Shown: in pieces, positions 2,311 to 12,897 of the stretch | How positions within the stretch are numbered: the stretch's first letter is position 1 | Layout of the letters: each line of letters starts with the position of its first letter | Origin: a virus | IMG/VR virus record: IMGVR_UViG_3300047476_000961 | Coordinates: 1 to 45,183 of that record | Length of the DNA stretch: 45,183 nt | Direction: 5' to 3' (one strand) | Made by a program: the position numbers and the translations under genes | Notes under the pieces: generated by a model | Database searches by the model: none | The model's input: only the letters and a program-made list of their open reading frames with translations | What the model was told of the DNA's origin: nothing

Positions 2311-3837
2311 CTACTGGCTGTACGGATTTACCGCCGCGCTGGGCGGGGGCCGCTGCTGCTCGTCTTTCTTAGTCTTTAGCACGGAGACCAGCCCCTTGTC
2401 GATGCAGAGCCTGACGACCTGCGTCAGGGCGTCGACGTAGTCGTCGTGCTTGATGCTGCCCGGGCCGGTGAAGGCGCACACCTGCGCCAGCATCGGCTCG
2501 ATCCAGTTGCGCGGTCGGCCGGGGTGCGCGTCGCTCTCAGGCAGCCAGACGCGCTTGCGTGCGAAGATGTGGCTGACCATGTGCAGACGCGCCAGCTTGT
2601 CGGCGCGGCCGGGGTTGTAGGCGTAGGCGAGGATCCCCTCGCGCTCGAGCATCTGCCGCAGGCTGATGCCGCTGCCCTTGTCCTCGATCAGCAGCATGTC
2701 CGGCTTGCGCCCCGACGTGCGGGGCTTGTCGCTGCCGAAGAGCGGCTTGACCAGCGCCGCGTCCTCGTCGCCGCCATAGGCCGTGTTCAGCTCGCGCTTC
2801 ACGCGCTTGATCAGGTCGGGCATGCCGAGCTGCTCCGACCAGCAGTCGAGCACGATGAGGTGGCTGTTGCCCTCCTTGTCGTGGAAGCTGCCCATCACGA
2901 CGCAGGCCGTGCTGTCGGGGTCGCCCTTCTTCTTGTCGTACGTCGCCTCGGTGAAGGCGGTGTCGAGGCTCATGATGATGTAGTCGAAGGCGGGCAGCGG
3001 CTGCTTGGACGGCCACAGGCGGAAGTCGCTGCGCTTGACGATGCCGCTCTCTTCGGGGTCGATCAGCTCGCCGAGCGCTTCTTGGCGAAATATCTGCGTG
3101 CCTTCCATCGACATGATCTGGTCGCGGAAGGTTGGCGCGAGGTTGGCCATGTTCGACATGCTTGTGGCGCGTGTGACGATAACGTCTTTGCCGTCGCGGC
3201 CCACCAGTTCCCGGATCAAATGTTTTGGCTTCGGCGTTGTGGTCGCGACGATGCGCGGATGGTCGCCGAGGCGCAGAGCAAACATGATCATCTGCCACGC
3301 GTCTTCGTCGTACGTCCACGCTGCCAACTCGTCGGCCCAGACGCGGTGCCACTGGCCTCCGCGAAAGCGCTCAGGCTCCGAGGCGGGGATACCTTTAATC
3401 AGCGACCCGTTGATGAGGATTATCTCAGACAGGGAGCGGTTGTGGTCTTTAATCAGCTTCGAAGGGATGCAGTTGAGCAACCCGCTATCACCTTCGATAC
3501 ATGTGTCACGAATGTCGCCTAACGTCGGGGCGGTGATGAGTGATCTCGAGCCGGGATCACGCCACGCCTCCCACCATATCCACTCGGCCGCGCACCGCGT
3601 CTTACCTGCCCCGCGCCCCGCGAGTAACAACCACGTGCGCCAGTCACCTTCGGGCTCGATCTGGTGTGGGTGCGCGCCAGCGAACCACGCCATACGCGCG
3701 TCGAACGCGATACGGTCGACTGTCGGTAGTTCGGCGCGGGCGACACGCGCGGCGGAGAAAGTAGCATCGATATCAGGAACGGCGAGCAAGTTCACGCTCC
3801 TCGCGTTTACGGGCCAGCGTGGCAGCTCGCTTGGCAA
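2311..3837 (-). CDS. terL: Terminase large subunit (ATPase and nuclease)
   Basis: This is the DNA-packaging motor: it drives DNA into the prohead through the portal and cuts the concatemer. Visible motifs are Walker A GRGAGKT (residues 74-80), Walker B VWADE (166-170), a coupling motif ATTTPKP (about 198-204), and nuclease acidic positions in SLDTAF (about 290), LLIEDKGSG (about 385) and a C-terminal HDDYVDAL. The length (508 aa) is normal for the family. The start is uncertain: a TTG at 3837 has GGAG five bases upstream, but it lies inside the end of the GIY-YIG gene (65-base overlap). A GTG at 3795 and an ATG at 3693 are in frame; the latter leaves only about 25 residues before Walker A. 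Confidence 0.93.
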   Translation of the reverse strand: MPSELPRWPVNARSVNLLAVPDIDATFSAARVARAELPTVDRIAFDARMAWFAGAHPHQIEPEGDWRTWLLLAGRGAGKTRCAAEWIWWEAWRDPGSRSLITAPTLGDIRDTCIEGDSGLLNCIPSKLIKDHNRSLSEIILINGSLIKGIPASEPERFRGGQWHRVWADELAAWTYDEDAWQMIMFALRLGDHPRIVATTTPKPKHLIRELVGRDGKDVIVTRATSMSNMANLAPTFRDQIMSMEGTQIFRQEALGELIDPEESGIVKRSDFRLWPSKQPLPAFDYIIMSLDTAFTEATYDKKKGDPDSTACVVMGSFHDKEGNSHLIVLDCWSEQLGMPDLIKRVKRELNTAYGGDEDAALVKPLFGSDKPRTSGRKPDMLLIEDKGSGISLRQMLEREGILAYAYNPGRADKLARLHMVSHIFARKRVWLPESDAHPGRPRNWIEPMLAQVCAFTGPGSIKHDDYVDALTQVVRLCIDKGLVSVLKTKKDEQQRPPPSAAVNPYSQ

Positions 3838-4522
3838 GCGTCTCCGGCGACAATTTACGCCCCCTTAGCGCCTCGCTTAGTTTGCGCCGCTGTTCGTCCG
3901 TTTTCGGCTTGCCGCGCCAACGATCGCCGAGAGCGTCGCACACCGCCTTGGACCTTTTCTGGCCGCGCATCTTTTCGGCGCGCTTGGCGACAGTCTCGGC
4001 GGGCTGCTTCTTGCCGAGGTTGGCCGCGCGCAACTTAGCTCTAGTCTCTTCGCTCACCGTCTTTCCGGTTAGCGCCGCCGAGACCTTGGCCACATGCTCG
4101 GGGGTTTTCTTGCGGCCTGTCAGAGCCGCTGATGTCTTAGCGCGAAGCGCTGGGTCGGCCTGACGCCGCGTATGCGTCTCGGACATGCGCGCCTTGGTCT
4201 CAGGCGAGGCGACGTACCCGACGAGGCCGCTCTCGCCACCGATCGCAAGATTGTAACCGTGCGGCGATCGGGTGTTCAATTCGGCGATCAACGCGATCTC
4301 ACGTTCGCAAGCCTGTTCGAGGGCGAGGCCGTCTTCGAGCACGCAGACGCTGAAGGCCTCGACACCGTATTTGCGGATCGCTGCGTACAGCGCGCCGCCA
4401 CGACCTGTAAGCGCGTTGTATTTGTGCGTCGCGAAACGCTTGGCGACGCCGGCCTTGGTCAGGCCGATGTACGCCTTACCGGTGGCCGCACAGTCGATGC
4501 GATAGACGCAATGATTAAACAC
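3773..4522 (-). CDS. GIY-YIG homing endonuclease with NUMOD3 repeats
   Basis: A free-standing homing endonuclease, predicted to nick or cut related phage DNA lacking the gene. The N-terminal GIY-YIG domain has VYRID (residues 6-10, GIY equivalent), AYIGLT (17-22, YIG), the conserved Arg near residue 29, and a Glu-rich helix around 70-80. From about residue 105 the protein consists of short basic repeats of the type SPETKARMSE / TPEHVAKVSAAL / SEETRAKLRAANLGKK, the DNA-binding NUMOD3 pattern. It uses a GTG start at 4522, overlaps the terS end by 8 bases and runs 65 bases into the terL reading frame. It is therefore inserted between two genes that are normally adjacent, without breaking either. 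Confidence 0.9.
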   Translation of the reverse strand: MFNHCVYRIDCAATGKAYIGLTKAGVAKRFATHKYNALTGRGGALYAAIRKYGVEAFSVCVLEDGLALEQACEREIALIAELNTRSPHGYNLAIGGESGLVGYVASPETKARMSETHTRRQADPALRAKTSAALTGRKKTPEHVAKVSAALTGKTVSEETRAKLRAANLGKKQPAETVAKRAEKMRGQKRSKAVCDALGDRWRGKPKTDEQRRKLSEALRGRKLSPETLAKRAATLARKREERELARRS

Positions 4523-5096: not shown

Positions 5097-5149
5097 CACC
5101 TCATCCGAAGGCGCATCACCGCAGCGCTGCAGCGCGTGCAGCACGACGG

Positions 5150-5171
5150 GGGGTTAGCTGTAGCTAACCCC
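5150..5171. promoter_or_regulatory. 22-base perfect palindrome (operator-like)
   Basis: GGGGTTAGCT (5150-5159) is followed after two bases by its exact reverse complement AGCTAACCCC (5162-5171). The near-zero spacer favours a dimeric protein-binding site over an RNA hairpin. It lies between two of the 9-base repeats. Confidence 0.55.
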
Positions 5172-5260
5172 ACCCCGGCTCATGCTGCATTGCACCGCGC
5201 AGCACGTAACTGCAGCGTGCAGTGTTTTTCGTGCTGCAAATTGCCAAAAAACGGCGGAAA

Positions 5261-5280
5261 TCTGCGGAATGTACCGCAGA
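5261..5280. promoter_or_regulatory. 20-base inverted repeat (operator-like)
   Basis: TCTGCGG (5261-5267) and CCGCAGA (5274-5280) are perfect reverse complements with a 6-base spacer. This is typical spacing for a helix-turn-helix dimer site. It lies between iteron-like copies at 5230 and 5286. Confidence 0.45.
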
Positions 5281-5415
5281 CACCCCGTGCTGCACGACCC
5301 TCCCATTGCATCACCGCATCACGCCTTTTCGCCCCTCAGCATGCGTTTGCAGCACGACTTTACATCACGCAATAAAATTACGTGCTGCATTTTTTCACCC
5401 CTGTGCATTTTGTGT

Positions 5416-5472
5416 ATTGCAACCCTGCATTGCAGCGTCTAGGAGGGATCATCAACACGAACAAGGAGTACC
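5416..5472 (+). promoter_or_regulatory. TTGCA-N8-TTGCA element plus leader, copy A
   Basis: TTGCA occurs at 5417 and again at 5430 (13 bases apart). It is followed by ATCATCAACACGAA (from 5449) and the extended ribosome-binding site GGAGTACC (5465-5472), five bases before the ATG at 5478. Four other sites share this arrangement. It probably starts the main early transcript. Confidence 0.55.
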
Positions 5473-7076: not shown

Positions 7077-7339
7077 TCATGACCGAAGACACGCCTGAAG
7101 GCGGCCCAGAGGAGCTGCAGTGGAAGATCGACCGGCTCACCGAGAAAGTCGAACAGCAATCTGCAAGTCTGGAGCGTGAGTACCAGAAACGCGCCGCTAA
7201 AGTAGAGGAACTGCACGCGCTGCAAGCCCGCTACGACACCCTGACATCGCGCCTGACCGTCGGCGTCCTGCGCGCGGCGGGCTTCACTGTCGAGATTGGG
7301 CTGCCGGAGTTCTGCGAAACCTGTGGAGAGGAGTACTGA
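7073..7339 (+). CDS. Hypothetical coiled-coil protein with CxxC end
   Basis: An 88-residue protein. Residues about 12-60 form a heptad-like coiled coil (ELQWKIDRLTEKVEQQSASL and following). The C-terminus ends in FCETCGEEY, a lone CxxC. GGAGTACC (7060-7067) lies five bases before the ATG at 7073; a second ATG at 7079 is possible. The gene overlaps the previous one by four bases and is followed directly by the alpha-CTD-like gene. Confidence 0.72.
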   Translation: MIMTEDTPEGGPEELQWKIDRLTEKVEQQSASLEREYQKRAAKVEELHALQARYDTLTSRLTVGVLRAAGFTVEIGLPEFCETCGEEY

Positions 7340-7342
7340 GAC

Positions 7343-7804
7343 ATGACCACAGACGTCCGACTGCAGGCGATGATCCGCGCCCTCGACGAGCGACTGAAGA
7401 CAGTCAGCATCGACGATGTCGAACTGAGCGTACGCACCCTGAAGGCGCTTAAGGATTGCGGCGTGCGCACCCTACACGAAGCCCAGATGGCGCTGATCAA
7501 CCGCCAACTTGGTAAGCAGCCCGGCATCGGCCCCAAGGCGATCCGTGAGGTCGAGGAGATCATCTTCAACGTCACTGCCGCCCTGCCGCCACCAGCGGAG
7601 GTCGCAAGGCAGCAGCGCCGCCTTGAGCTTAACAGCCTGCTGCTGGCCTACGAGATGCATGTGCTCGCACTGTATACCTACCAGAACGCCGATGCGCGCC
7701 CCGAGGACTTTCTGGGTATCGACGTCGGGGGTTCGATCGCCAAGCGCAAGGCCTCTATCAACAAGGTACGCGAGCTGATCCTCGCCTTCGCAGACCGCCC
7801 ATAA
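7343..7804 (+). CDS. RNA polymerase alpha C-terminal-domain-like protein
   Basis: Residues about 23-76 of this 153-residue protein read like the C-terminal domain of bacterial RpoA: IDDVELSVRTLKALKDCGVR then GIGPKAIREVEEII. Aligned by eye with E. coli, DNA-contact residues Arg265 (here R31), Gly296 (G63) and Lys298 (K65) are kept, while Asn268 and Ser299 become Lys and Ala. In RpoA this domain binds UP-element DNA and activators. The N-terminal assembly domain is absent. The remaining residues 80-153 are helical and unfamiliar. It could bait host activators, bind phage promoters or be a generic helix-hairpin-helix DNA binder. It sits in the early cluster after GAGGAGTACTGAGAC. Confidence 0.7.
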   Translation: MTTDVRLQAMIRALDERLKTVSIDDVELSVRTLKALKDCGVRTLHEAQMALINRQLGKQPGIGPKAIREVEEIIFNVTAALPPPAEVARQQRRLELNSLLLAYEMHVLALYTYQNADARPEDFLGIDVGGSIAKRKASINKVRELILAFADRP

Positions 7805-8551: not shown

Positions 8552-9151
8552 ATGACTAGAACAGCTGTAACCACAGACCAGATCCGCCAGCACTTGGCGG
8601 CTCGCGGCACCTGCTCCGTCACGGAGATTGCCAACCACTTTAAGTGCAGTGAGACGCAGATACACGCCAAGTGTCGCAGCATGCATGACGCGGGCCTACT
8701 CGAACTCATCAAGCGTCCGGTGAAGGTCACGAAGAGCAACGGGGAGACCTACATGAGGGACGCCGTCAAGGTCTACCGCATCCGCGTAAAGCCGCCTGTT
8801 GCGACGCCTGAGACCAAGCTGACGGTCCAAGTGACGCCTGAGACCAAGTCGGATGCCGAAGGGACGTTGATCACCGCGCCGACTTCTGGGGAGCTGCGCT
8901 TCACCTTCCCCAAGCCTGTGCAGAAGGACACCTCGATCAATACCGCGATCGCCGCAATCGCCACCCTGCGTCGCACCCTGACACCTGACCAGCTGTCGGC
9001 GCTTGGCGTGACGCTGGCCGACCCACTGGCGGATGCCCTAGAGGAGATCTCGGGCGAGGGCGGCTTCGACAACTTCAACCATCAGGCATACCGCCTGCGC
9101 TCCGCGCTGGCTGATAAGGGCCTTAAGATCGTGAGTTGCAGCGATGACTGA
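8552..9151 (+). CDS. Winged-helix DNA-binding protein
   Basis: A 199-residue protein. Residues about 6-75 match a winged helix: TDQIRQHLAARGTCSVTEIA, NHFKCSETQIHAKCRSM, then a basic wing. A linker with two PETK segments follows, then a helical C-terminal domain of unknown type. GGAGTACC (8541-8548) lies three bases before the ATG. Its C-terminus overlaps the next gene by eight bases. A regulatory role is inferred from the fold alone. Confidence 0.75.
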   Translation: MTRTAVTTDQIRQHLAARGTCSVTEIANHFKCSETQIHAKCRSMHDAGLLELIKRPVKVTKSNGETYMRDAVKVYRIRVKPPVATPETKLTVQVTPETKSDAEGTLITAPTSGELRFTFPKPVQKDTSINTAIAAIATLRRTLTPDQLSALGVTLADPLADALEEISGEGGFDNFNHQAYRLRSALADKGLKIVSCSDD

Positions 9152-12078: not shown

Positions 12079-12897
12079 ATGCCGCAACACTTCTACGTCT
12101 ACGAACACTGGCGTACGGATAAAAACACTTGTTTTTACGTCGGCAAAGGTTGCCGGCGACGGGCTTGGGTCATGGCCCACCGGCCGAAACATCACGTCAA
12201 CTTGCAGCATAAGCTGCGCAGGAACGGCGCGGCAGTTGTTGTTCAGATATTTGCTGAAGACCTTTCGGAGGAGCAGGCATTCACTTTAGAAAGACAACGC
12301 ATCGCGTATTACCGTGGCTTGGGGGCGGACCTTTTGAACCGCACAGATGGCGGCGAGGGTCCGAGTGGTTTACGGCTGTCTGAAGAGGCAAAAGCTAAAA
12401 TATCGGCCGCACGTAAAGGTAAGGCTTTAAGCGCGGAACACCGCGACAAATTGTCAGAGGGGCAGAGACGGCGTTTTTCGCGTCCCGAAGAGTTGCAGAA
12501 GCTGAAAGAGCGTAACAGGGGTCGGAAAGCCAGCCCAGAGAGTATAGAAAAACGAGCGGCCAAATTGCGCGGGCGAAAAATGTCTGAAGAGTTTTGCCGA
12601 GCGATAGGCGATCGTATGCGCGGGCGTAAGACCAGTGAGGAAACGCGAGCCAAGCTCCGCGAGGCCAATCTCGGTAAAAAGATGCCTGAAGATAGCAAAC
12701 TCCGGCGCAGGGCTACAAATCCACATAACAAGGCCGTGCGGTGCCTGCAAAACGGTTGCGTTTACATAAGTGCCTCAGAAGCCGCCAGACAGCTTGGCGT
12801 CTTACGATCGCACGTCGCGGAAATATGCCGAGGCGCGTCCACGCGTAAAAGCACAAATGGCTACACATTCGAATACGTAAGGGAGGACCATGGCTAA
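12079..12897 (+). CDS. GIY-YIG homing endonuclease with NUMOD3 and C-terminal helix-turn-helix
   Basis: A 272-residue free-standing homing endonuclease. The N-terminal GIY-YIG domain shows HFYVYEH (GIY equivalent) and CFYVGKG (YIG), then a basic surface. Residues about 95-215 hold several NUMOD3-type repeats (SEEAKAKISAARKGK, SEETRAKLREANLGKK). The C-terminus (ISASEAARQLGVLRSHVAEI) is a NUMOD1-like helix-turn-helix. The ATG at 12079 has GGAGG five bases upstream. The end overlaps the primase start by eight bases. It appears less GC-rich than its neighbours, a sign of transfer. Confidence 0.9.
   Translation: MPQHFYVYEHWRTDKNTCFYVGKGCRRRAWVMAHRPKHHVNLQHKLRRNGAAVVVQIFAEDLSEEQAFTLERQRIAYYRGLGADLLNRTDGGEGPSGLRLSEEAKAKISAARKGKALSAEHRDKLSEGQRRRFSRPEELQKLKERNRGRKASPESIEKRAAKLRGRKMSEEFCRAIGDRMRGRKTSEETRAKLREANLGKKMPEDSKLRRRATNPHNKAVRCLQNGCVYISASEAARQLGVLRSHVAEICRGASTRKSTNGYTFEYVREDHG

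Follow-up and report, generated by a model that had tools for sequence, protein, structure and literature searches.

The C-terminal domain of the RNA polymerase alpha subunit (alpha-CTD) is one of the chief places where activators and upstream DNA dock, and phages that depend on host polymerase must redirect that enzyme. Here we ask whether a small gene of a freshwater phage, carried on a 45,183-base IMG/VR virus record that was analysed at its full length (the window), encodes a version of this domain, as a first-pass annotation had proposed by eye, and what such a protein might do.

Genomic setting of the gene

Among isolates, Caulobacter phages RW, RLK, KcrB and GB2A come closest, with 57% identity in the large terminase and 56% in DNA polymerase. 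Gene order is similar to that of those phages, with minus-strand terminase genes and then a plus-strand cluster of small genes that runs into helicase-primase, DUF2800, DUF2815 and DNA polymerase. The ORF of interest (7343-7804, plus strand, 153 aa, ATG start) precedes the replication genes, which share its strand, and has a good ribosome-binding site, read from the sequence as GGAGAGGAGTA (GGAGAGGAG upstream of the ATG; 7325-7335, plus strand). Both in the window and in L006, the gene is clustered with winged-helix regulator-like genes, one of which (8552-9151, plus strand) matches a PHROG transcription regulator with E 1.6e-5. The label 'early' given to the gene in the first-pass annotation is drawn from gene position only. 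In line with that annotation, which saw no phage RNA polymerase in the window, no T7-type enzyme turned up there or in the relatives, in a search run without a positive control on records that may be incomplete.

The ORF holds a true alpha-CTD domain

Profile, fold and residue evidence together confirm that the 7343-7804 ORF holds a true alpha-CTD domain, at residues 17-74 (7391-7564, plus strand), and both sequence strings quoted in support of this likeness by the first-pass annotation are present. Pfam RNA_pol_A_CTD (PF03118) matches residues 17-73 with 30.1 bits (E 4e-7; gathering cut-off 23.8 bits), and all eight family members pass the cut-off, with 27-37 bits. This is the sole PF03118 match over the whole record and the only Pfam match above cut-off in the 153-aa ORF, where the RpoA N-terminal dimerisation/assembly domain is not found. 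A profile built from 31 unrelated viral alpha-CTDs, leaving out the protein's own family, scored the ORF at 29.1 bits as against 7.2 for the best of 5000 shuffles, and among 614 window ORFs it alone rose above the shuffles. Matches among PDB sequences were nearly all alpha-CTDs.

Three other explanations of the match were rejected. The shuffles and the scan of all window ORFs rule out chance resemblance. A generic helix-hairpin-helix protein is ruled out since no such Pfam family scored above its cut-off (HHH_8 reached E 0.084, in one member only) and alpha-CTDs account for every one of the best structural matches. Contamination by host rpoA was likewise ruled out for this ORF.

Structure prediction also supports the assignment. 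The eight-row family alignment alone gave a low-confidence domain in AlphaFold; a usable AF2 model came from a 37-row alignment to which 31 rows from other viral alpha-CTDs had been added. Its mean pLDDT was 85.7, with about 85-93 over the domain, and its pTM was 0.50, so that the arrangement of domains is not fixed by the model. Helices at residues 30-38, 44-52 and 64-79 follow the alpha-CTD order. The top 23 Foldseek matches in the PDB are all alpha-CTDs, superposing at about 2 A for well-aligned cases, and they include the Caulobacter alpha-CTD on A/T-rich DNA (PDB 9zum). Foldseek probabilities reach 1.00 and the best E-value is 0.08, a modest figure because the domain is short. As the alignment itself contained alpha-CTDs, the fold result is supporting rather than independent. 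The analysis gave neither of the two outcomes named in the first-pass annotation as refuting it, a profile match confined to unrelated helix-hairpin-helix domains or a predicted fold without the helix arrangement of alpha-CTD.

The first-pass annotation's description of the protein as a stand-alone copy needs amending: about half of the protein lies outside the domain, in one additional helix at the N-terminus and a helical hairpin at the C-terminus. The C-terminal part (residues 81-153; 7583-7801, plus strand), with predicted helices at 84-114 and 128-151, matches no Pfam or PHROG family. In PHROG, a PmgS-like head morphogenesis protein matches the ORF weakly (E 0.0099).

A slowly changing protein in a fast-changing neighbourhood

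The family comprises eight IMG/VR contigs with identities of 74-100%. There were no relatives among plasmids and GTDB genomes and none among INPHARED phages, where one insignificant match was seen; neither PF03118 nor the family profile matched phages RW, RLK and ctpbd312. The alpha-CTD protein is 84%, 80% and 74% identical to its counterparts in G004, G005 and G008, and in the same comparisons the terminase is 58-61% and the DNA polymerase, where present, 70% identical. Its dN (0.067, 0.113 and 0.142, respectively) is the lowest among nine shared genes, and its dS is 0.52-0.62 compared with about 0.5-1.2 for the others. A dS near that of other genes combined with the lowest dN favours slow protein change; recent transfer alone was rejected as the source of the high identity, dS being only slightly lower. 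The whole-gene dN/dS of about 0.17 indicates purifying selection, with residues 81-114 the most constrained (about 0.07) and residues 115-153 the least.

The adjoining early genes turn over and are mostly not common to the relatives. G005, which is possibly a fragment, has the alpha-CTD gene together with a weak helicase-primase match and no PolA or DUF2800 match. In four relatives a conserved gene of 114-134 aa begins a few bases past the alpha-CTD stop (L014:6460-6864, L016:6430-6774, L013:6447-6848 and L011:5431-5826), and L012 also has it, in a copy 96% identical to one of the four. Its product matches nothing in Pfam and nothing significantly in PHROG, contains an HTH-like segment by eye, and has no full homologue in the window.

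DNA-contact residues and the control region

The 265 determinant for DNA binding consists of R265, N268, N294, G296, K298, S299 and E302. The first-pass annotation had seen equivalents of Arg265, Gly296 and Lys298, and these are indeed R31, G63 and K65, present in every family row tabulated, where the equivalents of E302 and E261 are likewise retained. The Arg31 codon lies at 7433-7435 (plus strand), and the residue is invariant in 37 of 37 alignment rows; we note that the other viral alpha-CTDs were found with RS(Y/A/F)NCLK or NLG patterns, which by construction inflates the frequencies of R265, N268 and N294. The alignment with RpoA alpha-CTD requires a one-residue insertion in the phage protein. 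Three of the seven contact positions are altered: at the place of Asn268 the window protein has Lys (Asn in 3/8 family members), at that of Asn294 most members have Gly, and at that of Ser299 all have Ala. In E. coli alpha, R265 and N268 touch DNA and UP-element activation is lost on N268 substitution (PMC11434276). To judge from the aligned residues, the putative DNA-binding surface is thus partly retained and partly changed, and with Asn268, Asn294 and Ser299 mostly replaced, UP-element binding of the ordinary kind cannot be taken for granted.

The divergent control region before the early cluster contains an array of GTGCTGCA/TGCTGCA words (5137-5389), within which all five window copies of GTGCTGCA fall. 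The equivalent region of G004 has 13 TGCTGCA words in less than 450 bases, and such arrays are less marked in G008, with none clearly visible in the G001 and G005 control regions. The array was considered as a binding site of the alpha-CTD protein and set aside, as its co-occurrence with the gene fails in these last two. Next to it, TTGCAAC (5417-5423, plus strand) is by eye the probable -35 box of a rightward early promoter; it appears conserved in the G001, G004 and G008 control regions, and by eye reads TTGCAA-N17-TATACG in G001 and TTGCAA-N17-TCTAAC in Caulobacter phage RW. The TTGCA elements, on which the first-pass annotation had proposed footprinting, look more like -35 boxes than alpha-CTD binding sites or UP elements.

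Other viral alpha-CTD proteins

IMG/VR, searched with an alignment of alpha-CTDs, yielded 41 loci, of which 40 were inspected and 33 proteins chosen, so that viral non-RpoA alpha-CTD proteins number at least 33 in that database; the proteins of phages V16 and Mazun bring the set to 35. PF03118 matched all 35, sigma region 4 was found as well in 14 of them, and some of the remainder carry Cro/C1-type HTH or acetyltransferase domains. The RpoA N-terminal family is absent from all 35. The sigma-70 region 4 fusions, in which the alpha-CTD is C-terminal, include L045, L049, L050, L054, L065 and L067, and some have an extra N-terminal Cro/C1-type HTH. In L079 and L080 (ORF 1392-2285), a GNAT acetyltransferase domain is fused to a C-terminal alpha-CTD. 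Among cultured phages, PF03118 occurs in Ruegeria phage vB_RpoS-V16 gp23, Bacillus phage vB_BmeM-Goe8 gp005 and Microbacterium phage Mazun gp26. V16 gp23 (L017 2926-3789) is annotated as a pyrophosphatase and has its alpha-CTD domain at the N-terminus. An annotated alpha-CTD-type protein is also known from Erythrobacter phage vB_EliS-L02 (ORF40; PMC9127768). Some matches in phage records are host rpoA, among them at least one unannotated gut 'phage' (MT835508) and the Salmonella and Acinetobacter records.

The literature searched contained sporadic annotations of viral alpha-CTD proteins and no functional study. Such proteins are therefore already known, if apparently uncharacterised in that literature, and the window family is a distinct variant. 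It resembles RpoA alpha-CTDs, including that of Caulobacter (9zum), in predicted fold, helix order and the Arg265, Gly296, Lys298, Glu302 and Glu261 equivalents, but differs in the three mostly changed contact positions, in lacking the RpoA N-terminal domain, and in the extra N-terminal helix and C-terminal hairpin that RpoA does not have. With the sigma region 4 fusions (L050, L054, L065) it shares a virus-encoded alpha-CTD outside RpoA; there, however, the domain follows sigma region 4, whereas in the window protein it lies near the N-terminus with no sigma domain. Likeness to the V16, Goe8 and Mazun proteins is limited to the PF03118 domain, which in Goe8 and Mazun is C-terminal.

A possible role at promoters served by host polymerase

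What, then, might the protein do? Our leading reading, to which we give a little less than an even chance, is that of a phage transcription factor whose alpha-CTD head acts at promoters served by host polymerase. The C-terminal hairpin may make the protein dimeric; paired heads would then bind promoter DNA directly ahead of the -35 box, where they would touch host sigma region 4 or activators, and phage promoters would be favoured. That outcome would go through the host enzyme because the phage appears reliant on it. The PF03118 match in all members, the alpha-CTD fold, the invariant Arg265 equivalent, the lowest dN and the winged-helix regulator-like neighbours argue for this reading, and the sigma region 4 fusions in 14 of the 35 other viral proteins point to a role in transcription. 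Phage T4 shows that phages do act on this domain: its ModA modifies alpha Arg265, abolishing host alpha-CTD contacts (PMC2988021). T4 Alt and ModA thus resemble the window protein in that a phage acts on alpha-CTD function, but differ in being Arg265-modifying enzymes rather than copies of the domain. On the other side, the Lys at the Asn268 equivalent and the changes at those of Asn294 and Ser299 count against a transcription factor, as does the inconsistent co-occurrence of gene and TGCTGCA array; the model's pTM and the low-confidence domain from the eight-row alignment also make for caution.

The same surfaces could serve host takeover, with a free alpha-CTD occupying host upstream elements or titrating activator or sigma contacts, such that host transcription falls and phage promoters are left unaided. 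The retained Glu261 and Arg265 surfaces are compatible with such competition, and phages are known to attack alpha: besides ModA, phiKMV-like Rac is reported to mediate alpha subunit cleavage (PMC7552054). We nevertheless consider it unlikely, as very high conservation despite differing neighbours suits a core function at least equally well, and the three substitutions would weaken competition for UP elements. Those substitutions would also suit a domain that has drifted into binding DNA more generally, perhaps in replication, recombination or genome packaging, with action in transcription lost; the position upstream of same-strand replication genes and the PmgS-like match would also fit. The best structural matches, all of them to alpha-CTDs, the lack of any generic helix-hairpin-helix family above cut-off, and the retention of the gene in G005, possibly a fragment, without PolA and DUF2800 matches make this quite unlikely. 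Finally, the alpha-CTD surface may dock an HTH protein of the phage, for instance the product of the conserved downstream gene in the four relatives and L012, which would confer DNA specificity; we regard this as improbable, given that the partner's HTH was seen by eye, that it has no Pfam or significant PHROG match and that the window has no full homologue.

Returning to the transcription-factor reading, a phage protein that copies this domain and changes less quickly than the terminase or the DNA polymerase hints at a means of retargeting polymerase that leaves the enzyme unmodified. A bolder proposal, possible but on the doubtful side, is that detached alpha-CTD modules, free-standing or joined to sigma region 4 or other domains, are in wide use among phages as mobile pieces of host RNA polymerase that re-specify promoter choice while outside the enzyme; the window protein would then be a dimeric core regulator of this kind, its DNA contacts altered to match phage promoters. 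The viral alpha-CTD proteins, many of them fused to sigma region 4, form a testable class.

Further features of the window

Two homing-endonuclease-like ORFs (3773-4522 and 12079-12897), recognised by eye from motifs repeated near their C-termini, are missing from the compared relatives. A translation leader, GGAGTACCNNCCAATG, is repeated before six early genes (5465, 5918, 6163, 6410, 7060 and 7809), where chance would give 0.27 copies over the window; the leader of the alpha-CTD gene is a different one.
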